Source: Chloracidobacterium thermophilum B (lineage in GTDB: Bacteria > Acidobacteriota > Blastocatellia > Chloracidobacteriales > Chloracidobacteriaceae). From it: 64,000 bases of DNA. The stretch is taken from NCBI RefSeq assembly GCF_000226295.1, contig NC_016024.1, forward strand, positions 1,967,501 to 2,031,500, read 5' to 3'. The notes under the pieces are model-generated. The model was not told where the DNA came from, ran no database searches, and saw only the letters and a program-made list of their open reading frames with translations. Shown piece after piece: positions 7,101 through 56,347 of the stretch (the first letter of the stretch is position 1; each line of letters starts with the position of its first letter). Position numbers and translations under genes: made by a program.

Positions 7101-7214
7101 CCGTGGGCCGTCTGAACCGGCCCGGTCAACCGGCCGCATCCGGCACTCGTTTCCGTAGCTTGGCGAAACCGGCCGGAAACGACAAGCCGTTCTGTCAGAC
7201 TTACTCATTCCTGC

Positions 7215-8447
7215 TCAAGCAGGAACAAAGCTGACTTCCTGCTTCGTTGAGGCCGGTTTCACAACCGCCTTGCGGCCGCCGCCAGAGCCTTCCTCTCCAC
7301 AGGCTTGACATCCGGCGGAACTCGCCGTAGAGCCGTTCAGGACGGCCAGACCATACGCCAACAAATTCCGCGCCGCATTCACATCCCGGTCGTGCAGGAT
7401 GCCACAGGCCCGGCATCTCCACCGGCGCACTGACAGCGGCAACACCTCCAGTTGGTGTCCGCAAGCCGAACACGTCCGGCTGCTGGCAAAGAAGCGGTCG
7501 GCGGCCACCACCAGCCCGCCACGCCTTGCCGCCTTGTACTCCAGTTGCCGCCGGAACTCACCCCACCCCATGTCGGCAATGGAGCGGGCCAGTCGCCGGT
7601 TGGCCAGCATGCCACGCACATTCAGGTCCTCAATGACAATGGTATGAAACCGGCGCGTAAGCTCGCTGGTGAGCTTGCTGGTGAGCTTGTGCAGGGCATC
7701 CTGCCGGATGTTGGCTGTCCGCGCGTGCAGCCGTGCCAGCTTCCGGCGGGCCCTGGCGCGGTTGCGTGACCCCTTCTGCTTTCTGGACAGGCTTCGCGAC
7801 AGCCGGCGCAGGCGTTTGAGCAGAGCGGTGTGTGGTTTGGGGCCGGGAATGGTCTCTCCCGTCGAGAGCGTCGCCAGCGCCGCCACACCCACATCCACCC
7901 CCACCACGCCTTGGTTCTCGGCGGGGCGTCTGGGCGGATCGTCGGTGTCAACGGTGATGCTGACAAACCAGCGGTCGGCGGTGCGGGAGACCGTGGCTGA
8001 CATGATCTTGCCGGAAAAGCGCAATGGCTCGCGCATCCGCACCCAGCCCAACTTCGGAATGCGAATGTGTGAGCCGCTGACTTTCACCTAGTCATTGCTG
8101 AGCGTGAAACGATCATCCACGCCCTTCCTGCGAAACTTCGGATACCGGGCGCGACCGGCAAAGAAATTCCCGAACGCCCGCCCCAACTGCATAATCGCCA
8201 TCTGCGGGGCGCACTTGGTGACCTCCAGCATCCAGGGGAACTGTTCGCGCTTGATGGCGTTGAGTTGGCGGCGCAGGGCCGCCTCAGACGGCCTGGGCCG
8301 GCGGTTGTCAGCCTTCCATGCCGCATACTGCCGTTGCCACTCGTCCAGCGCCCAGTTCCAGGCAAAGCGCGCCGTGCCGGCCGCACGGGCCAGCCAGGTG
8401 GACTGCCGGTTGTTCGGATCAAGCGCAATCCGATGAGCCGTCAACAT
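7215..8447 (-). pseudogene. tnpB: TnpB RNA-guided nuclease with a single in-frame amber codon
   Basis: Two open frames (8447 to 8091 and 8087 to 7215) are in the same frame, parted only by TAG at 8088-8090. Together they give about 410 codons, the normal TnpB length. The first part ends FTLSND and the second resumes KVSGSHIRIPKLGWVRM, the continuous family sequence, so the stop most likely replaced a CAG. RuvC residues are intact: GVDVGV, VIEDLNV and DRDVNAARN. The zinc knuckle CSACGH...CRACG is also present. A GTG directly after the amber could start a C-terminal product. Inactivation is the simplest reading; read-through or split translation is possible. Confidence 0.85.
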
Positions 8448-9056
8448 ATCTGTGCCTCGGCGACGGCCTGCTTCACGCCGTCAATAAGTTTCCGGTTCCG
8501 GTGTGACCGGCTGCCATAAAGCCGGGTGCTGAAGACGGTGCTGATCTCCAGAACGTCCTTCGCCAGGTCTTCCTCAAACGTCGTGTCCTCACCCTGGTTG
8601 AGCATCACCACTTCAACGTTTTTGGCCTCGCCAATGGCAAACACCAGTCCGGTGCCAAAACAAAGCCGCCGGTCCTGGTGCGTGATGACCAGCCGCCCGG
8701 CTTCTCCGGCCAGGATGGACTCCAGCCAACGCCTCAGTCCTTTCTTGTGGTCGTTCATGCCGGAGCCAAGGTCGGCAATGATCCCGAACGTCCAGCCCGG
8801 TTGGGTGCAGTACAGTTCAGGAACCTGCTTTTGCCGCTCCAGACCGTCTTTCTGGTCATGACTGGAAACACGGGCGTCAGCGATGGTGCGCCGCGCCGTT
8901 TCCCGGCCGCGGAACGACGCGGGACACAGCCGGGTCATACCGCCGGCGCCCACCCGGCGTGCGTTCGTCGGGCAAAAGCCGCCCTTCGCGTTCCCAGCGT
9001 CGCAGGGTCTGAGCTGAAACACCCAGCAACTCGGCCGCTTTGTGGATACTGACCAT
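8441..9056 (-). pseudogene. tnpA: IS607-type TnpA serine recombinase, frameshifted
   Basis: The first 43 codons from ATG 9056 encode a MerR-like HTH (MVSIHKAAELLGVSAQTLRR, then RTPGGRRRYDPA). The frame then runs into a stop at 8877. The recombinase domain continues in another frame from about 8930 to 8441 (RRTIADARVSSHDQKDGLER, GEDTTFEEDLAKDVLEI). The break lies near 8925-8937. An ancestral YDPARL reading would need five more bases, consistent with loss of one CCCGG copy. The usual DRLxRFG motif reads DRRLCFG, another sign of decay. Confidence 0.8.
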
Positions 9057-9212
9057 CCGGCGTGACAGATGCAAATTGTAGATAAATAAGCATAAATGTG
9101 CAACTACTGCGTCAGCAGTAAAAGCCCGGACGGAACGCCGGCCCGTGGCGCTTCCGATGGTTGGCGTTCTCCCGCCTTTTCCGGGATAATCGTCCACCGT
9201 AAGGAGCAGGGC

Positions 9213-14510: not shown

Positions 14511-15170
14511 ATGAAGTTGAGCGATTTTGCAGCGGTCATCTTCGATATGGATGGCCTGCTGATTGATACGGAAACCCTGTACTGCCAGTCGTGGCAGCGG
14601 GCGGCGGCAGATTGTGGTTTTGTCATTACACCACACTTTTATGAACAGCTCGTGGGACGTTCCCGTGCCGATGCCCTTCAGATTGTGCTGGAGCATTTCG
14701 GCGATCAGGTTCCGATGCCGGATTTTCACGAGCGCGTGCTGCACTACGAGACGGTCTGCTTTGCCGAAGCGCCCATTCCTGTCAAGCCGGGCGCGTGGGA
14801 GATGATCGCGGCCGTGGATGCCCAACTGTTGCCCAAGGCGCTGGCGACCTCAACGCACCGCCCGGCAGCCCGGCAGCGTTTGGCGCGCACGGGGTTGGAT
14901 CGGCACTTTCACATTATTGTGACTGGCGACGAGGTACCACGTCCCAAACCGGCGCCGGACATTTACTTGGCAGCCTGTGAACGGCTGGGTGTATTGCCCC
15001 GGGATGTGCTGGCTTTTGAGGATTCCGAACCGGGTGTCCAGGCAGCCTATGCTGCCGGTGTCACGGTCATCATGGTGCCCGACTTCAAGGCGCCATCACC
15101 TGAAATTCAAGCTCGCACCGCCCGCATTTTTCCGTCGCTGACACTGGCACTTGACTCCCTGTGTGGATAG
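14511..15170 (+). CDS. HAD-superfamily phosphatase/phosphomutase, subfamily IA
   Basis: The 219-residue protein has HAD motif I FDMDGLLIDTE at 11-21 with the nucleophile Asp, a helical cap (about 20-85), motif II ATSTHRP, motif III lysine in PRPKPAPDIYL and motif IV FEDSEPGVQAAYAAG. This pattern resembles beta-phosphoglucomutase and GS1/pseudouridine-phosphatase relatives. The substrate cannot be predicted. The first GT-C-like gene follows after a short gap, so the two could be co-transcribed. Confidence 0.9.
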   Translation: MKLSDFAAVIFDMDGLLIDTETLYCQSWQRAAADCGFVITPHFYEQLVGRSRADALQIVLEHFGDQVPMPDFHERVLHYETVCFAEAPIPVKPGAWEMIAAVDAQLLPKALATSTHRPAARQRLARTGLDRHFHIIVTGDEVPRPKPAPDIYLAACERLGVLPRDVLAFEDSEPGVQAAYAAGVTVIMVPDFKAPSPEIQARTARIFPSLTLALDSLCG

Positions 15171-15235
15171 CTTAAGAGGTGCCATTGGCTTCCGAAAATA
15201 AAGCTGAATTCCCCCAAATTGAACGTTCTGGACCA

Positions 15236-16783
15236 ATGACGCCGACTGCGCCTGACGCACTGTGCCTGTCCCCGGTCTGGAAACAGCACGTGTGGTTTGG
15301 TCTCATCGGGTTGGTTGGCACCGGCTGGCTATGGTTTGCCATGTCCCGGCACGGGATCGGGCTTTCACCAGATTCGGTAGGCTATCTGGCAGTTGCCCAG
15401 CACCTGCTTGAAGGTAAGGGCTTTCTCTCCTACCGGGGTGAGCCTTTCGTCCTCCAGCCACCACTGTATCCTTTAGTAATCGCCACAATAAGTTTCCTGC
15501 TTGGCTCCACCCCGGCGACATCGGCTCTCCTGATCAACCTTCTCCTTTTCGTCGCCGTTGCCTACTTCTCTGGCCGGCTTGCCATCCTGATCACAAAATC
15601 CTTTCCTATCTCAATCGCCGTTTGTATCTCGGTTATCCTGGGTGTACCAATCACTTGGGTTTCTGTTTTCGCCTGGAGTGAAATACTTTTCATTCTCCTT
15701 ACAATTCTGGCATTCCTGAACCTGATTGGCTTTGTCTCATCCAAGGATAAAAAAGACTTACTAGTATGCTCTCTTTATCTAGCCTGTTCGTGCATGGTTC
15801 GTTACGCGGGACTTTTTTCTGTTTTTTCATTTCTATTATTTCTGATTCTAATGCCGGGTGAAAGATTGCAGAAAAAAACATATCGAATTGTTGCTTTTTT
15901 ATACATCTCATCCTTGCCTATATCTCTTTGGATACTGAGAAACTACATTCTATCTGGTACTCCTTTTGGCCCAAGAACCATGGCTTCTCTGAGACCGAAT
16001 GAGATTATTTTTCTATTTTTTGACACCTTTTCCGGTTGGTTCATTGTCCAGACAGATGCTTTGCAAAATGACATTATCTTAATCCTGATACTTATTTTTT
16101 TGACCTTTGCAGTTTCCACTGCGTGTATCTATCAGATAAAAGATACCAATATATTGTCTCTTGTAATCTTTGTTTTCACATATTCACTTTTTGTCTTTAT
16201 TTCTTCCGTGCGTTTTGCATACGATCCAATTGACAACCGCTTGCTCTCTCCAGTTTTTATACCTTTGGTCATCGTCTTGTTAAACTTTTCAAACAAGGTG
16301 CTCTACCCATATCTAAAAAGCAAGGTCTCCAGTAGTGCACAATCCCGGCTCATTATCTTGGGAGCAGTGATCTGGTTTACCCATCCGGTACTTTCTACAC
16401 TGACACTTGGATTTGAGGTACGCCAAGAAGGCAAGGGCTACCACGCCATTTACTGGCAGACCAGCCCGACCCTGGCTCAAGTCCGCCAGGCGCGTGAGCG
16501 ACTCATCCGGCTACCCATTTATACCAACGACCCCGAAGGACTGTACTTTCTGGCCCACATCCGGGCCGAGCACCTTCCCTTTCGGTTTCGTTCAACCTGG
16601 CCGGAGTCAGGGCAGGCGTACCTGATTCGCTTCAAGCATGCCTACCGTGGTGGGTGCTTGGACATCATCGAAGGACTCCGCCAGGCGGCCGACATCAAGC
16701 CACTGGCCCAGTTTTCCGACGGTGAAATCTATCTGGTGACACACAAATCCCTTCTTGCATCTCCAACATTGGTGCCTCATTAA
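15236..16783 (+). CDS. GT-C-like membrane glycosyltransferase, tandem copy 1
   Basis: A polytopic protein of about 515 residues. After the first membrane span comes HGIGLSPDSVGYLAVAQHLL and GKGFLSYRGEPFVLQPPLYP, which matches the acidic first loop of GT39/ArnT-like lipid-linked-sugar transferases. About ten hydrophobic spans follow, then a soluble C-terminal part ending LAQFSDGEIYLVTHKS. A GTG at 15179 is in frame, but ATG 15236 aligns with the starts of copies 2 and 3. The ends of the gene are GC-rich like the genome, while the middle is AT-rich. The sugar donor and acceptor are unknown. Confidence 0.75.
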   Translation: MTPTAPDALCLSPVWKQHVWFGLIGLVGTGWLWFAMSRHGIGLSPDSVGYLAVAQHLLEGKGFLSYRGEPFVLQPPLYPLVIATISFLLGSTPATSALLINLLLFVAVAYFSGRLAILITKSFPISIAVCISVILGVPITWVSVFAWSEILFILLTILAFLNLIGFVSSKDKKDLLVCSLYLACSCMVRYAGLFSVFSFLLFLILMPGERLQKKTYRIVAFLYISSLPISLWILRNYILSGTPFGPRTMASLRPNEIIFLFFDTFSGWFIVQTDALQNDIILILILIFLTFAVSTACIYQIKDTNILSLVIFVFTYSLFVFISSVRFAYDPIDNRLLSPVFIPLVIVLLNFSNKVLYPYLKSKVSSSAQSRLIILGAVIWFTHPVLSTLTLGFEVRQEGKGYHAIYWQTSPTLAQVRQARERLIRLPIYTNDPEGLYFLAHIRAEHLPFRFRSTWPESGQAYLIRFKHAYRGGCLDIIEGLRQAADIKPLAQFSDGEIYLVTHKSLLASPTLVPH

Positions 16784-16973
16784 GTAACTTTTTACACCGA
16801 TCAACTACTACAATGATGTGTAGCCTATCAGGAAGACAACTCATAAAAGAGCAAAACCTCATCAATATAGCACTGGTCTCTTAGGCGTGAGGTCAGCTTT
16901 CGGTTCTGATCTAACGTCCTGTAAGCAGGCATCCTTTTATGTGATTCTTGGGTTTGGGGAGTGATTAAGCGAC

Positions 16974-18521
16974 ATGATAATATCTACAGAATCCAGTCTA
17001 CTAAACTCACAACTTAACTGGAAACAACAAGTTTGGTTTGTATTCATCGGTTTAATTGGTTCTTTCTGGTTGTGGTTTGCTACATTTCGGCATGGGATTG
17101 GAATCTCACCGGATTCAGTAGGGTACATGGCAGTTGCCGAAAACCTACTCAAAGGGAAAGGCTTTATCTCCTATAACGGCGAGCTTTTTATCGTGCAGCC
17201 ACCAATGTACCCTATAGCTATAGCCGCTTTTAGTTTTTTCTCTGGATTAAATCCTGTTAAGTCTACTTTACTGCTTAATCTTTTACTTTTACCTCTTACT
17301 ACTTATGTATCTGGGAAATTAGCATTCTTAATTACAAAATCATTTTTAGTATCACTATTCGTCTGTTTTTCAATAGTATTTGGAGTACCAATAAATCATG
17401 TATTTACTTATGCTTGGAGCGAACCACTTTTTATATTTTTGTTGACCTTTGCCCTCCTTTACATGGTGAAATTTATTGATTCTGATAAGAAAAAATATCT
17501 GGTAATTTGCTCAATCTCTGTTGGTTTTTTGACTATAACCCGCTACGTAGGCATTTTCATAATAATAGCGTTTCTCATGCTGCTACTTCTCGCCATTGAA
17601 AAGAAAGTTATAAAAAGAAGAAATGAAATATACTTGTTTTTATTCATTTCCTCTTCTCCAATTTGCTTTTGGGCTGTGAGAAACTATAATCTCTCTGGGT
17701 CTTTCTTTGGTCGCTCGAATAGATCACTTTACGGCATAGGTGAACACGCCTTTGGTTTTAGTGAAGCCATAACCAGTTGGTTTATTCTCCCTGTAAATTA
17801 CTTCCAGAATAAAATACTGATTTTTCTGATAGCAATTGCACTACTATCCTCTATACTTTCTATCACCGCACTGAATCATGGCAAGAATCTAAAAACTCTT
17901 GCCTTAGTAATACTTGTTTATGTTTACTCTCTCTTTCTATTTATTACCTGCGTGAACACCCAGACAGATCTAATAGGTAATAGACTGCTTTCGCCTATTT
18001 TTATTCCACTAGCAATCGTACTACTAGATATATTCTACCATCGAATCTACATACGAGTAGTAAATAAGATACCCAAGAAAATGCATTTTTTACCGACCGC
18101 TTTGAGTTATGTAATCTGGTTTACCTATCCTATAGTTTTCACACTGGCACTCGGACTCGAGTCTTACCGAGAAGGGCTGGGCTATCATGCCACTCACTGG
18201 CAACAAAGTGAAACGATAGCCTATGCTCGCCAAGCCCACAAACATCTCGTACAGCTACCCATCTATACCAACCAACCCGAGGCAGTGTATTTTTTTGCGC
18301 AAATTCAAGCTGGACGTCTAAGATGTGTGCAATCTAATCTGATAGCTTATACCAGCGATCCAACTTGGTTAGAAGCAGAACAAGTGTATCTGATTTGCTT
18401 CAAGGAGGACTACCTCAGTGACTGCTTAGGTACTCTTAAATCAGCCTATAATCCTGACATCAATCTAATAGCCGAATTCTCTGATGGTGCAATCTATCTG
18501 ATGACACGGAGAAAAATCTAG
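16974..18521 (+). CDS. GT-C-like membrane glycosyltransferase, tandem copy 2
   Basis: A 515-residue paralogue of copies 1 and 3, with the same N-terminal core (WKQQVWFVFIGLIGSFWLWF, GIGISPDSVGYMAVAENLLK), the same span pattern and the same C-terminal ending EFSDGAIYLMTRRK. It is AT-rich throughout, with many A/T-ending codons, unlike its neighbours. The C-terminal domain departs most from the other copies, with an extra loop near 1840 in the aligned region (YTSDPTWLEAEQ). It is preceded by 190 bases without a gene and followed by the dead ATPase fragment. Function as for copy 1, uncertain. Confidence 0.75.
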   Translation: MIISTESSLLNSQLNWKQQVWFVFIGLIGSFWLWFATFRHGIGISPDSVGYMAVAENLLKGKGFISYNGELFIVQPPMYPIAIAAFSFFSGLNPVKSTLLLNLLLLPLTTYVSGKLAFLITKSFLVSLFVCFSIVFGVPINHVFTYAWSEPLFIFLLTFALLYMVKFIDSDKKKYLVICSISVGFLTITRYVGIFIIIAFLMLLLLAIEKKVIKRRNEIYLFLFISSSPICFWAVRNYNLSGSFFGRSNRSLYGIGEHAFGFSEAITSWFILPVNYFQNKILIFLIAIALLSSILSITALNHGKNLKTLALVILVYVYSLFLFITCVNTQTDLIGNRLLSPIFIPLAIVLLDIFYHRIYIRVVNKIPKKMHFLPTALSYVIWFTYPIVFTLALGLESYREGLGYHATHWQQSETIAYARQAHKHLVQLPIYTNQPEAVYFFAQIQAGRLRCVQSNLIAYTSDPTWLEAEQVYLICFKEDYLSDCLGTLKSAYNPDINLIAEFSDGAIYLMTRRKI

Positions 18522-18565
18522 GATTCTAGGCTGATCACCACAATCAACTTGGGTTAGCCTTGGTC

Positions 18566-18829
18566 TTAGCGTACCATAGGCCGGAGCTGCTCAATGTGCT
18601 GGCTGATTTCCGCCGGCGAAAGATGCCGGGAGGCTTCCGGCAGCATGTCACGTGAGGTCGCTTCCCGTAAGGCAACCAAGGTTTAGTACTCGATGGCCAC
18701 TTCATCCCGGGCCGGGGTAAATTCCTGGGCTACAGCACGTACGTCTTCCGGGCTAACTTCCTTGCGCCCAGCTTGCCGCGCCACCCGGCAGCGGATGAGA
18801 ATAGGCTCAATATCCGCCCCTGAAAGCCT
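18566..18829 (-). pseudogene. Duplicated 3' fragment of the AAA+ ATPase gene
   Basis: About 264 bases match the last 267 bases of the intact ATPase gene (20574-20840) on the same strand. They include the end EQLRPMVR and the segments PAEISQ, RDEVAIEY and the GRKEVSPEDV region. The copy carries an in-frame TAA where the intact gene reads CAA (EYQTLVA) and a three-base loss in the CRRVAR stretch. The bases between glycosyltransferase stop and ATPase stop are also alike in both places. The fragment is therefore the scar of a tandem duplication that copied a glycosyltransferase gene plus the end of its convergent neighbour. Confidence 0.9.
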
Positions 18830-18901
18830 CCTCTGTTTTTTTGCAATACTAACTATTCAATATGCTGGTCGGTAGAATAATCCATAGCAATGGTGTTTTT
18901 C

Positions 18902-18930
18902 TTGACAGTACCTGCTCGTTTGATTACCTA
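18902..18930 (+). promoter_or_regulatory. Possible sigma-70 promoter of tandem copy 3
   Basis: A consensus TTGACA at 18902-18907 is followed after 17 bases by TACCTA at 18925-18930, about 55 bases before the ATG. The second hexamer is weak. The 18830-18988 stretch has no other gene-like content and is AT-rich. Confidence 0.3.
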
Positions 18931-18988
18931 TGTACACAACTTCAGAGAATGCTGCCTTCCCGAATCAAGCCAAATTCTCAAAGGTTAC

Positions 18989-20545
18989 ATGATTGACGTG
19001 ATAACATCCGAAGCACTCTCCGTACCCCATCCGCGACTTGGTTGGAAACAGCAAATATGGTTCATGCTCATTGGCCTGCTTGGCGCTGGCTGGCTATGGT
19101 TTGTTATGTCTCAGCACGGGATTGGACTCTCACCGGATTCAGCAGGATACTTGGCAGTTGCCGGTAACTTACTTGAAGGAAAGGGCTTTATTTGTTACTC
19201 AGGTGAACCTTTCGGTGCACAACCACCACTATACCCTTTGGCTGTTGCCACTTTGAGCTTCTTGCTTGGTTTAGACCTAAAAACATCTGCGTTATTTCTT
19301 AATCTTCTAATTATAGTCTTTGCTACTTTTATATCTGGAAACCTTACATTCTTAATTACAAACTCTTTTCCAATTTCGCTGTTTGTTTGCTTTTCGATTA
19401 TATTTGGGATACCAACCTTTCAGACATTTGTTTATGCTTGGAGTGAGCCTACCTTTATACTCTTCCTAAGTGTCGCTTTTTTTTATATGCTCAAGTTTAT
19501 TGACTATGAAGACAAAAAATACTTATTAGTATCTTCTTTTTTTATTAGTCTCGCTTGTATGACACGTTACGTAGGTATTTTCGCTTTAATTTCATTCCTA
19601 AGTTTATTGATTTTTAAAGCTAAGGAAGATATAGTAAAAAAAAGGAACGAAATATATACATTCTTGTTTATCTCTTCTTTCCCACTTTACCTATGGGGAA
19701 TGAGGAACTATATACTTTCCCGAACCTTCTTTGGTCGTTCAGGAAATCCTCTTCACAGCTTTAGTGAACACAGCTTAGGTTTTGTCAATGCTGTTACTAG
19801 CTGGTTTATTTTTCCAGTGAACTACTTCCAAAATAAAACTCTCTTGTTCTTAGTTGCGTTTCTGCTAATCTTCATACTTCTTGTTATCGGCGTAAAAGAA
19901 ATTACGAATTTAAAAGTTTTGTCACTAGTAGTTTTCATTTTTTTATACTTATTACTTCTCTTCATTGCATGCGTGAGTACCCACCAAAATCTAATTGACA
20001 ATAGGCTACTTTCACCTATCTTCATCCCTTTGGGGATTGTGCTAATAGATTTCTTCTATCGTCGAATTTATCTCCAATTAATGGACAAAATCTCCAAGCG
20101 AGTCCGGCCTTGGCTAGTTGTTCTAGGACTGATAGCCTGGTTTACTTACCCAGCGATCTCCACATTGAAATTTGGACTCGAGGTTCGCAAAGAAGGCTTA
20201 GGCTATCAATCTGTTCACTGGCAAACCAGCGAGACTCTTGCCTACGTTCGTCAAGCACGCGAGGAATTACTCCAACTACATGTCTATACTAATGACCCTG
20301 AGGGACTATACTTCCTTACCAAAATCCGGGCTGGACGCCTGTCTATTCAGTTTCACCCGAACTGGCCAGAAGCAGGAAGAGCATATCTGATATGCTTTAA
20401 GCAAGGCTATCTTGGTGACTGCCTGGAAATTCTTGACAGACTACATCAGAATCCTGAAATCAGGCCAGTAGCTGAGTTTTCAGACGGCACAATCTATTTG
20501 GTAACGCGCAGAAATCTTCAAGTCCCCAGCCCCGGCAACCACTAG
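18989..20545 (+). CDS. GT-C-like membrane glycosyltransferase, tandem copy 3
   Basis: A 518-residue paralogue of the two preceding genes (WKQQIWFMLIGLLGAGWLWF, GIGLSPDSAGYLAVAGNLLE, GEPFGAQPPLYP; ending EFSDGTIYLVTRRN). The frame opens at 18890, but ATG 18989 matches the paralogue starts. Most of the gene is AT-rich. It ends 28 bases before the stop of the convergent ATPase gene. The conserved SPDS motif in the first loop fits the metal- or lipid-phosphate-binding acidic residue of GT-C enzymes. That reading is by family likeness, and the substrate is unknown. Confidence 0.75.
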   Translation: MIDVITSEALSVPHPRLGWKQQIWFMLIGLLGAGWLWFVMSQHGIGLSPDSAGYLAVAGNLLEGKGFICYSGEPFGAQPPLYPLAVATLSFLLGLDLKTSALFLNLLIIVFATFISGNLTFLITNSFPISLFVCFSIIFGIPTFQTFVYAWSEPTFILFLSVAFFYMLKFIDYEDKKYLLVSSFFISLACMTRYVGIFALISFLSLLIFKAKEDIVKKRNEIYTFLFISSFPLYLWGMRNYILSRTFFGRSGNPLHSFSEHSLGFVNAVTSWFIFPVNYFQNKTLLFLVAFLLIFILLVIGVKEITNLKVLSLVVFIFLYLLLLFIACVSTHQNLIDNRLLSPIFIPLGIVLIDFFYRRIYLQLMDKISKRVRPWLVVLGLIAWFTYPAISTLKFGLEVRKEGLGYQSVHWQTSETLAYVRQAREELLQLHVYTNDPEGLYFLTKIRAGRLSIQFHPNWPEAGRAYLICFKQGYLGDCLEILDRLHQNPEIRPVAEFSDGTIYLVTRRNLQVPSPGNH

Positions 20546-20573
20546 ACTGATCCCAAGTTTGACTTACCTCAGC

Positions 20574-22457
20574 CTAGCGCACCATGGGACGAAGCTGCTC
20601 AATGCGCTGGCTGATTTCCGCCGGCGAAAGATGCCGGAAGGCTTCGGGCAGCATGTCGCGCGAGGTGGCCTCCCGGACGGCAACCAGAGTTTGATACTCG
20701 ATGGCGACTTCGTCCCGGGCCGGAGTGAATTCCTGGGCCACAGCGCGGACATCTTCCGGGCTGACTTCCTTGCGCCCGGCTTGCCGCGCCACCCGTCGGC
20801 AGCGGATGAGAATAGACTCAATATCCGCCCCCGAAAGCTTCAGATCACTTTTTGTAATCGGCGACCAATCGGTAACATGATGGGCAATCCGGTTTTTCCT
20901 GACCATAGCCTCAATAATAGCCAAGCGATCGGCTTCAGACTCTGGGTAAAACAGCGAGATATGCTCCTCACACCTTCCCTGCCGCTTCAGGTCAATGGGA
21001 AGCAGGTCAGGCCGTGAGGTCATCAATATCCAGAGAATGCGTCCGCGATTGTCTGTGTCTCCCATCGCGGCTGCAATCTTGGAAAAGATGCGCTTGTCCA
21101 CGCCGCTGTCTCCGCCACTATCCCGGTTCCCCAGTGTAGCATCAGCCTCATCAATCAAGACAACAATTGGTGCCAGCGTCTGGATGAGATTGAGAATCTT
21201 TTCAAGATTGGATTCCGAAGAACCAACCCACTTGTCCCGGAAGTTCTTGAATTCGACGACGTTCAGCCCACAATCCTTGGCAAAGGCTTCTGCCAGAAAG
21301 GTTTTTCCAGTTCCCACCGGGCCGGAGATAAGAATCCCCATGGGAGCTTCTTCGGTTTCGCCGTTGCGGATGACTTCAGCGATGTTGCGGAGATACGCCT
21401 TGGCTTTCTCGAAGCCACCAACATGGTCAAGCCCGTATTTCGGCGTCACAAACTCAATCAGACCGACACACTCAGCCTCGATGATGGATTTTTTCTTGGC
21501 ACGTACCAGATCAATCGTCAACCCCTCGTCACTGAGCGTTGCATTTTTGAGAATAGAGGAGATGTGAACCCGGTTCAGACCGGAAGTCAGGTGAGCAAGC
21601 TGCTCATCGCTGATCTGCATTTTGAGACCAAGGACACTGTTCCCCAGCTCGGCTTTCATCTTCTCAAGCTGCTCATTGAACTTTTTGGTTTCTTCGTTGA
21701 GCCGGTCAACGCCTTCCTCGCGCAAGATACGTTCGGCCTTGGCTTTGAAATCAGCTTTGAGCTGTTCGATTTCTTTTTCGGAGCGGCCATTACGTCGTTT
21801 GGCAATCTCCGCCAGCTCGTAGCGGATGTAATCAAGCCGTTCCGCGTGATCCGGGTATGGAACGCGAATGATTGTCAGCCGCGAATTCTCACGGAATCGC
21901 TGGGCCACATCTGACAGGTTTTCTGTGATGAACAAAACGATGTTATCAGAATTGAGCAGACGGGAACTCGTCAGCCATCGCTGAAACATCACAAGCAGGT
22001 TTCGCTCATCACTGCTCAGGTGAGTCATTTCGCCGGCCGGTACAAGCGTCTCCAGAAAGTTGATGATGACCGCCACCTGATCACCAGCGTAGAGAAACCG
22101 CTCAATCAACCCCAGCGCCGGCACTGGATCACGCGGGAGCGTCGTCAGGGTCTTCGTATCCGCAAGGGGGTTGGCAACCCGCAAGGTTGCCAGAAACTGG
22201 CGTTCGGCTTCCTGTGAGCCAAAGGAAATTCCCTCACTGCGGTTATAGAGCACGATGTGTTTGTTCCCCAGCATCTCCTGCTGAAGAAAAGTCACCAGTC
22301 CAACATAGCCACGCTTGGCGCGTGCCAGGTCATAGACGTTGTGGTGCAGCAGGAAATGGCTCGCCTCGCCGGAAAAATACTTGCGCCCCATTTCAGCCGC
22401 CCAATGCGGAAGCTGGCTGAGTTCATCGAGCGTCAGCAGGTGACGGGTGGCAGACAT
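20574..22457 (-). CDS. AAA+ ATPase of unknown function, single C-terminal AAA module
   Basis: A 627-residue protein. Residues 1-210 look like a degenerate ATPase-like domain without Walker motifs (HIVLYNRSEGISF, VAVIINFLETLVP, NIVLFITENL). Residues 210-290 are a charged coiled coil. The AAA domain has Walker A GPVGTGKT near 379, Walker B VVLIDEAD near 431 and a sensor region ILWILMTSRPDLLP. A helical lid follows. The layout resembles Ycf46-like ATPases; the role is unknown. The start has an AAGGAA eight bases upstream. It is the last gene of a run with ispF and tdk. Its 3' end was copied into the glycosyltransferase array. Confidence 0.8.
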   Translation of the reverse strand: MSATRHLLTLDELSQLPHWAAEMGRKYFSGEASHFLLHHNVYDLARAKRGYVGLVTFLQQEMLGNKHIVLYNRSEGISFGSQEAERQFLATLRVANPLADTKTLTTLPRDPVPALGLIERFLYAGDQVAVIINFLETLVPAGEMTHLSSDERNLLVMFQRWLTSSRLLNSDNIVLFITENLSDVAQRFRENSRLTIIRVPYPDHAERLDYIRYELAEIAKRRNGRSEKEIEQLKADFKAKAERILREEGVDRLNEETKKFNEQLEKMKAELGNSVLGLKMQISDEQLAHLTSGLNRVHISSILKNATLSDEGLTIDLVRAKKKSIIEAECVGLIEFVTPKYGLDHVGGFEKAKAYLRNIAEVIRNGETEEAPMGILISGPVGTGKTFLAEAFAKDCGLNVVEFKNFRDKWVGSSESNLEKILNLIQTLAPIVVLIDEADATLGNRDSGGDSGVDKRIFSKIAAAMGDTDNRGRILWILMTSRPDLLPIDLKRQGRCEEHISLFYPESEADRLAIIEAMVRKNRIAHHVTDWSPITKSDLKLSGADIESILIRCRRVARQAGRKEVSPEDVRAVAQEFTPARDEVAIEYQTLVAVREATSRDMLPEAFRHLSPAEISQRIEQLRPMVR

Positions 22458-53831: not shown

Positions 53832-54535
53832 GGTACTCTTTCAGAAGAAGCCAGCGGGGTGGTCGTCGGGGGGGCTTCGGCTGCCGGGCGCGGTCTCCAT
53901 CGCTCGCGCAGCACTTCAATGACAGCCGGCAGCACCGATACGACGATAATCCCCAGAATGACGAGTGAAAAGTTCTTCCTGACGAACGGGATGTTGCCAA
54001 AGGCATAGCCAGCGTAGGTCAGCGAGGCAATCCACAACACACCGCCGATGACGTTGTAGATGAGAAACCGTGGATAGTGCATGGCGCCAATGCCGGCGAC
54101 GAAGGGGGCAAACGTCCGTACGATGGGGACGAAACGGGCGATGATGATGGTCTTCCCGCCGTATTTGGCATAGAAGCGCGCCGTACGGTCAAGATGCCGC
54201 CGGTCAAAAAGGCGTGACGTGTCGCTGCGGAAAACGGCCGGCCCAACCCGTTTGCCAATCCAGTAGTTGACCGTATCCCCCAGCACGGCGGCGACACTCA
54301 GGGCCACCACCACGAGGTGAACATCGAGCACGCTGCCGGGTGTCGCGGCCAGGGCGCCGATGGCAAACAGTAACGAATCGCCGGGCAGAAAGGGCGTCAC
54401 CACGAGGCCGGTTTCGCAGAAAATCACCAGAAACAACAGGACGTACAACCAACCGCCAAGCTGACCGCCCAGGGCGTTGAGGTGTTTGTCGAGGTGCAGG
54501 ACGAGATCGAGGAGGTATTTGAGCAGTTCCATCAT
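53828..54535 (-). CDS. DedA-family membrane protein
   Basis: A 235-residue protein with about five spans and DedA marks FCETGLVVTPFLPGDSLLF, GDTVNYWIGKRVG, ARFVPIVRTFAPFVAGIGAM and NVIGGVLWI. DedA proteins take part in lipid-carrier or phospholipid flipping and envelope homeostasis. The substrate is not set by sequence. It lies between a two-span envelope protein gene and the BMP lipoprotein gene. Confidence 0.92.
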   Translation of the reverse strand: MMELLKYLLDLVLHLDKHLNALGGQLGGWLYVLLFLVIFCETGLVVTPFLPGDSLLFAIGALAATPGSVLDVHLVVVALSVAAVLGDTVNYWIGKRVGPAVFRSDTSRLFDRRHLDRTARFYAKYGGKTIIIARFVPIVRTFAPFVAGIGAMHYPRFLIYNVIGGVLWIASLTYAGYAFGNIPFVRKNFSLVILGIIVVSVLPAVIEVLRERWRPRPAAEAPPTTTPLASSERVP

Positions 54536-54553
54536 CGGGTCTGGTGCGCGGGT

Positions 54554-56347
54554 TCAGCGTTGCCGGTTCGGCGCAGTGGGCGTGGCAGTTGCCGGTTTGG
54601 TCTCGGCTTCGCCCGACGGGGTAAACGTTCCCTGGATGAAAACAGCCGGGACTTCTTTCATGTCCTTACCGTCGCCGGTCACGATCCGTTTAAGCGACGA
54701 CTGGCGATATTCCGCATCAGCAACCGTCAGGGTGTAGCGCCCTTCCTGCTGGGGTTCAAGCCGGTTGGGGACAAGGTAGATGGTGCGGCGTTCCGGGGGT
54801 GCGCCTTCCGGCTGACGGGGATACAGCTCAATCTCGGCCCGCAGTTCATAGAGCGTCTCGTTGGTGATGTTTTTGACGAGACCGGCAATCGTGACCATAC
54901 GGACGACTTTTCCTCCAGCTCCCTTCGGCGCGGAAGAATAGGCGTTGGCATACTGGCGCACTTCCACCTGCTTGACCGGAAGCGGCGGCGGAGGCGGCGA
55001 CTCAAGCCCCAGGGCGCGTGGAATGGCGGCCAACCGCTCCGCCCAGGCTGGAGGCAGCAGCCAATTGCGTACGGTGGGGAAAAAGACGACCACCAGCCCA
55101 CCCAGCACGACGGCATACACCACCAGACTCACCCCAAGCCAGGCTGCCTCGCGCCGAATCCCGGTCGGGCGGTCATCGGCCAGAAAGCGCGGTGGCGCAA
55201 CTGAAGACGCGGACGGCGACCCGGCCGGTGGCAACGTCCCGGCCGGTGGTTGCGGGCGTACGGCCGGCACCTGCTGCACGGGCAGCGGTAGCGGCGGGGC
55301 GGGCGGCGCCCCCGCCGGAGCGGAAACCTCGGGGTGGGACGGGTCTGTGACCGCCGAAGCCTTGGCTTCCCGGCCCAGGGCCACCGTTTCCGCGGCCGCA
55401 ATGACGGCCGTGGTCGCGGCCGAGGTCGCTGGCGTCACAGGTGCCGGCTTCGGGGGGGCTGCCGCGTCTGGCGTTGCCTTCGGTGCCGCTGCCGGTGGGC
55501 GCAGGGACTTCCGCTGGACGGGAAGCCGCTCGGTCAAACCGGCGCGCGGAGGATTCGGTATGGTTTCCGGCTCAGGCGCGGGTGGCACAGGTGGCGGAAG
55601 CAATGAACCCGTCGGGCGGCTGCCCAGCGGGCCCGTTGTCTTTGGGCCCATTGTCTTTGGGGAAGCCGGAGGTGGTGCGGGTGACGGTGCCAGTCGCGCC
55701 CGGATGTCCTCGGCAAGCAAACCCGATGGGGTGGAGGAAGGTTCAGAGGTGGAAGCCCCGGCCACGGGTGCAGGCGTCAGGGGCGTTGTGGCCGCGTCCG
55801 GGTCAGGCAGGGGAGCAGGGTGGACGCCGCCTTCAGACGCTGGGGCCGGTGGGCGCACAGGCTGGTCATTCGTGGCCTTCGGGCGGATTGCAACCGGGAG
55901 AACCGGCGCGGCGTGAGGCGCCAGCGAGGACGTTGCCGGGGCGGACGAAGCGTTTTCTGATCCTGACCAGTAGGCGGCAATGTCTTCTGCCACAGCTTCC
56001 GGCGGCGCTGGCACTGGAGCTGAAGCCGGGGTAGAGTGCAGGGCAGGCGATGGTGCTGCCGGAGCGGCTGGGACGGGTGCGACCGGTGGGACAGACAACG
56101 GAGCCCCCACAGGAGTCTCGGCGACAAGCGTCGGCGCGGGCGGTGCCTCACTGGAGACGATTCCAAGCAATCCATCATCGCCAATGTCCCGCTGGTCAGG
56201 GGCAGCCCGCAGGCTCTGCCAGGCCACCCACAGCAACACCAGAGCCAGCAGGACAAAGAACACTATCAGCGTCACGCCGGCAATAAACCACCACTGGGCG
56301 GCCGGCATGAGGAAACCAGGGCTGACGAGGGCTTTGAGTACAAACAT
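54554..56347 (-). CDS. Proline-rich two-span membrane protein with FxLYD-like end
   Basis: A 597-residue protein. The first span lies near 18-42, followed by about 330 residues of Pro/Ala/Thr-rich disordered sequence and a second span (GVSLVVYAVVLGGLVVVFF). The extracytoplasmic C-terminal beta domain (about 460-575) has GLVKNITNETLYELRAEIEL and VPNRLEPQQEGRYTL, like FxLYD domains. The long linker lies in the cytoplasm if both spans are as seen. Its start overlaps the previous stop by one base (TGATG). Function unknown. Confidence 0.75.
   Translation of the reverse strand: MFVLKALVSPGFLMPAAQWWFIAGVTLIVFFVLLALVLLWVAWQSLRAAPDQRDIGDDGLLGIVSSEAPPAPTLVAETPVGAPLSVPPVAPVPAAPAAPSPALHSTPASAPVPAPPEAVAEDIAAYWSGSENASSAPATSSLAPHAAPVLPVAIRPKATNDQPVRPPAPASEGGVHPAPLPDPDAATTPLTPAPVAGASTSEPSSTPSGLLAEDIRARLAPSPAPPPASPKTMGPKTTGPLGSRPTGSLLPPPVPPAPEPETIPNPPRAGLTERLPVQRKSLRPPAAAPKATPDAAAPPKPAPVTPATSAATTAVIAAAETVALGREAKASAVTDPSHPEVSAPAGAPPAPPLPLPVQQVPAVRPQPPAGTLPPAGSPSASSVAPPRFLADDRPTGIRREAAWLGVSLVVYAVVLGGLVVVFFPTVRNWLLPPAWAERLAAIPRALGLESPPPPPLPVKQVEVRQYANAYSSAPKGAGGKVVRMVTIAGLVKNITNETLYELRAEIELYPRQPEGAPPERRTIYLVPNRLEPQQEGRYTLTVADAEYRQSSLKRIVTGDGKDMKEVPAVFIQGTFTPSGEAETKPATATPTAPNRQR

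Follow-up and report, generated by a model that had tools for sequence, protein, structure and literature searches.

Homology-facilitated illegitimate recombination, one described process to which the locus reported here can be compared, is known from S. pneumoniae, A. baylyi and P. stutzeri, and it usually deletes resident DNA and leaves microhomology of 3-10 bases (PMC3240628). The other familiar process to be considered is tandem duplication in which a truncated piece of a neighbouring gene is left at the junction. Within Chloracidobacterium, strains B/D have an average nucleotide identity of about 93.7% to the 2/A/E/N/S group (PMC8245765). The window analysed here, by which we mean the whole stretch of 64,000 nucleotides from Chloracidobacterium thermophilum B, belongs to a genome of 3,695,372 bases in two contigs, the larger of which (2,683,362 bases) carries it. 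Over its entire 64 kb it aligns to the nearest relative, G001, at 93.4%, a value that suggests, without proving, that G001 belongs to the 2/A/E/N/S group.

Gene content of the locus in the window and in related species

Between a HAD-type hydrolase gene and a convergent AAA+ ATPase gene, the window carries three homologous genes in tandem, designated GT1, GT2 and GT3. The preliminary description of this DNA had recognized the adjacency and homology of these glycosyltransferase (GT) genes, and it had also placed, with correct coordinates, a dead copy of the ATPase 3' end between the second and third copies, in the same orientation and setting as the live end. Both observations were borne out, and the parts of the locus are as follows.

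14511..15170, plus strand: HAD-superfamily (beta-phosphoglucomutase-like) hydrolase gene, with NCBIfam HAD-IA and PGMB matches; flanks the locus on the left in each of the seven species
15236..16783, plus strand: GT1, a likely GT-C-like glycosyltransferase of ancestral type, orthologue of the G001 single copy by amino-acid identity (85%) and tree
16784..16973, no strand: GT1-GT2 spacer, unmatched elsewhere in the genus; similarity to G001 ends at 16754
16974..18521, plus strand: GT2, diverged AT-rich copy, sister of GT3 by identity, dS and tree
18566..18829, minus strand: dead ATPase 3' end, comprising the last ~264 bases, with an in-frame TAA, a 3-base deletion and its own stop TAA
18830..18988, no strand: spacer upstream of GT3, unmatched elsewhere in the genus; a possible, unproven remnant of the HAD 3' end
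18989..20545, plus strand: GT3, diverged AT-rich copy, sister of GT2 by identity, dS and tree
20574..22457, minus strand: intact AAA+ ATPase gene (627 amino acids, AAA domain), convergent with the GT array
20574..20780, minus strand: last 207 bases of the intact ATPase gene, a probable imported tract, identical to G001, compared with a dS of 0.48 for the rest of the gene

The start of GT3 was set at 18989, which matches the starts of GT1 and GT2, rather than at 18890, where the mechanical open reading frame begins. The nearest relatives of the ATPase gene are those of Chloracidobacterium. Promoter and terminator scans gave nothing above chance, and a mobile-element origin of the two spacers was not supported, both being unique in the genus.

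Each of six other Chloracidobacterium species has a single GT copy, compared to three here. The adjacency of the HAD and GT genes is kept in all six, while that of the GT and ATPase genes is found only in G001 and G006; in G001, the single GT directly adjoins the ATPase gene. The additional ~3.8 kb, containing the further GTs and the fragment, is specific to this genome among the seven species compared. Relative to G001, the window has two insertions longer than a few hundred bases, one extending from 16755 to the ATPase stop and the other at 7189-9121. The flanks of the latter are contiguous in G001, and it contains a TnpB-like gene (7215-8447, minus strand), with an in-frame stop after SND, beside a serine-recombinase-like frame, an arrangement resembling that of IS607-type elements.

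Identical runs of at least 200 bases make up 10% of the alignment to G001, the longest being 553 bases (54072-54624). Judging from the alignment, the import of G001-identical tracts looks common, and frequent recombination between this species and that of G001 is suggested. Identity to G001 is also strongly mosaic across the window, moving between about 80% and 100% from one 100-base bin to the next. Divergence peaks locally at 15100-15300, on the left edge of the locus, across the HAD 3' end and the HAD-GT intergenic region, where identity is 71-73% compared to 83-98% for most of the surroundings.

Divergence of the glycosyltransferase copies and of the ATPase fragment

Amino-acid identity is 46% between GT1 and GT2, 51% between GT1 and GT3, and 55% between GT2 and GT3. 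It had been proposed that the three genes share the same core and C-terminal end; the sharing is real, but it is not confined to those parts, as the genes can be aligned end to end, with similarity highest in the first and last quarters. In the GT tree, GT1 pairs with G001 and GT2 with GT3 (100% support), with G006 and the rest outside. The dS between GT2 and GT3 is near saturation (1.7-2.0), compared to 0.23-0.31 between GT1 and G001. Both GT2 and GT3 are altered at eleven residues that are invariant in seven single-locus orthologues, and at seven of the eleven the replacement is the same in both (F145Y, P246R, R247S, L260G, P331L, R465C and A485P), indicating that GT2 and GT3 descend from an ancestor that had already changed; GT1 retains the ancestral residues. 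GT2 and GT3 represent an old and diverged branch of the single-copy GT, a type that the six other species lack. The values between the two copies (dN/dS 0.32/1.96) indicate purifying selection, and both genes look functional on this measure. The GC content is 38% for GT2 and 40% for GT3, and the middle third of the family is AT-rich across most of the genus (28-42% GC; 54% in G005).

All three genes have weak profile similarity to the putative glycosyltransferases of the PMT_2 (PF13231) and LA_3751-LA_3752 (NF047440) families. They score far under the curated cut-offs, which none of the three reaches (12.6-19.8 bits against 26.1 for PMT_2, and 28.7-42.5 bits against 200 for NF047440), and no solved relative was found by sequence. 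Since these matches are weak and below the cut-offs, the label GT-C-like is likely but unproven; the three proteins presumably act as membrane-embedded sugar transferases of the GT-C type, with GT2 and GT3 shifted in function. A conserved SPDSxGY motif is found near the N-terminus, and its Asp is invariant in all nine sequences. The fold predicted from the three sequences is mostly helical, although with a mean pLDDT of only 42.9. The GT family is closely knit in this genus alone: a single-sequence search found no relatives in the rest of the order, and a profile search returned only distant ones within the class.

When the ATPase end was searched against the DNA of the genus, the fragment was matched over its whole stretch, and the alignment of 18566-18829 with 20574-20840 is far above chance (88% identity, E = 1e-91), as the homology first proposed would lead one to expect. 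The same search found the fragment as an independent gene in none of the six other Chloracidobacterium species. The two ends also appear as direct repeats, 18567-18792 with 20575-20800 at 87% and 18786-18847 with 20797-20858 at 84%. Beyond 18829, 11 of the next 20 bases match, after which similarity falls to near the chance level. Both marks of decay previously ascribed to the fragment are present, namely a premature TAA, at codon 50 of the last 88, and the loss of one triplet; its own stop is retained as TAA. A second ATPase remnant was sought after GT1, and none was found.

Over 261 bases, the fragment and the intact ATPase end differ by 24 synonymous and 6 nonsynonymous changes (dN 0.029, dS 0.48). 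Neutral decay would be expected to produce about 29% synonymous changes, which the observed counts reject (P = 1.5e-8), indicating that the fragment diverged mostly under coding constraint and died recently. The 6 nonsynonymous differences, over roughly 180 nonsynonymous sites, would put its time as dead sequence at about 0.03 substitutions per site. If only four-fold sites are counted, identity is 64% for the fragment compared to 48% for GT2-GT3, which is not a significant difference (Fisher P = 0.08), and the age argument therefore rests mainly on the nonsynonymous sites.

Origin of the two ATPase ends and assembly of the array

The relationships among the fragment, the intact gene and G001 bear directly on how the array arose. 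Between the intact ATPase gene and G001, dS is 0.045 over the last 88 codons, compared to 0.48 over the rest of the gene. From the stop codon at 20574 to 20780 the two are identical (207 bases); beyond this identity is about 90%, and dense divergence is back by about 20844. The dS of the fragment is 0.54 to G001 and 0.48 to the intact end, which is the ordinary distance between the two species, the latter value being equal to that between the window and G001 over the rest of the ATPase gene. Just past the stretch of identity, two sites show a state common to the fragment and the intact gene but missing from G001 and all five outgroups, and these sites tie the fragment to this lineage. Given this dS pattern and the two shared sites, the fragment is most simply read as the native end, and the present end as G001-like. 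Additionally, the fragment breaks off at 18829, corresponding to 20840, no more than about 60 bases from where divergence in the intact gene is back at its normal level (20780-20844), as might be expected if a single exchange gave rise to both.

The array was probably assembled by recombination between diverged copies, not by one recent tandem duplication, and we give about an even chance to the explanation in which the fragment is the displaced native ATPase end. The ancestral locus would have consisted of the HAD gene, one GT and the convergent ATPase gene, as it now does in G001 and G006, and the diverged GT copies would have been alleles of co-resident relatives or older paralogues. The stretch at 18566-18829 would most likely be the former ATPase 3' end of this lineage, and the incoming segment would have carried an already diverged GT3 together with a G001-like ATPase 3' end. 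A homologous crossover within the ATPase gene, some 204-270 bases short of the stop, would have joined one side of this segment, with the other side joined without long homology; the incoming end would have restored a full-length ATPase gene, and the displaced end would have started to decay. A linear piece of a relative's DNA, joined homologously at one side only, would yield the observed layout, and we infer both that GT3 and the ATPase tract were imported as one event and that this was the mechanism. Counting against this explanation, the two shared sites are few, and the G001-identical tract, unremarkable by itself given that a tenth of the alignment consists of identical runs of that size, may reflect an independent conversion. 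A donor in which GT3 adjoins a G001-like ATPase end was not found among the six relatives or the viral contigs; G001 has a GT1-type gene in that position, and the viral contigs searched contained no relatives.

Of the alternatives, the one that survives best, although we consider it unlikely, is an old tandem duplication, possibly of a unit comprising the HAD end, a GT and the ATPase end, that took place in an ancestor and was lost in G001, with the fragment refreshed by conversion from the intact gene, which lies 2 kb off, and G001-like DNA subsequently written over the intact end. The fragment stands in the same place relative to GT2 as the live end does relative to GT3, and a weak gapped similarity between 18830-18988 and the HAD 3' end plus HAD-GT intergenic region would fit a larger duplicated unit; under lenient scoring its score is 47, a value that 2 of 3818 controls attain. 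However, this similarity fails under strict scoring and was not found by nhmmer, and the explanation requires conversion over practically the whole fragment in addition to the loss in G001.

It is distinctly improbable that a third, unsampled Chloracidobacterium lineage contributed GT2 together with its own ATPase 3' end, now the fragment, to a genome in which GT3 was already present. Over most of its length the fragment does lie apart from the intact end and G001, which group together (22 fragment-derived differences compared to 5 derived in the intact end and G001), and none of the six other species has the GT2/GT3 type, but the two derived states that the fragment and the intact gene have in common, against G001 and all outgroups, argue for a native origin, and neither the six relatives nor the viral contigs yielded this donor.

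Finally, the one-step event originally proposed, a single tandem duplication, in this lineage, of one GT plus the ATPase end and then decay of the duplicated ATPase piece, is very improbable even though the layout, orientation and distance of the fragment match those of the live end, since the parts of such a unit differ greatly in age, and a fragment duplicated at the GT2-GT3 split would be worn almost beyond recognition instead of 88% identical. These ages led us to reject a simple unit duplication, which would hold only if the fragment had been renewed by conversion or if a later replacement had affected one of the GTs. By the same measure, to call the locus an expanding array in action was too strong, as the copies are old and only the junction looks recent.

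Returning to recombination between diverged copies, a broader interpretation can be offered only tentatively. Possibly, diverged GT types are exchanged among hot-spring Chloracidobacterium through their conserved flanks, which would make the GT locus between the HAD gene and the ATPase gene a trans-species polymorphic site; the types could then accumulate in tandem, with each exchange leaving a displaced gene end behind as a dated footprint.

Comparison with known recombination events

The locus is a real, readable footprint of local recombination and is ordinary in kind. No closely comparable case emerged from a literature search. In Chloracidobacterium, the footprint points to a glycosyltransferase locus that is restricted to the genus and evolving fast; it may serve a surface glycan and could differ between strains sharing one mat.

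As in homology-facilitated illegitimate recombination (PMC3240628), one end would have been joined by homology and the other without it, with foreign DNA inserted beside a homologous anchor. The candidate foreign tract beside the anchor is the ATPase end, with its 207 bases identical to G001 compared to about 90% identity beyond, and such tracts are common in the window. In contrast with that process, no deletion of resident DNA is seen here, two copies of a short part of the resident gene are present, and the mechanism is reconstructed from its product alone. A tandem duplication with a truncated neighbour at the junction has in common with this locus the gene repeats in direct orientation and the partial flanking gene between them, but the age of the repeated genes here far exceeds that of the partial neighbour. 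The locus illustrates clearly how a dead piece of a gene can carry an age different from that of the copies on either side, so that an arrangement with the natural look of a tandem duplication is better interpreted as the product of recombination between diverged copies.
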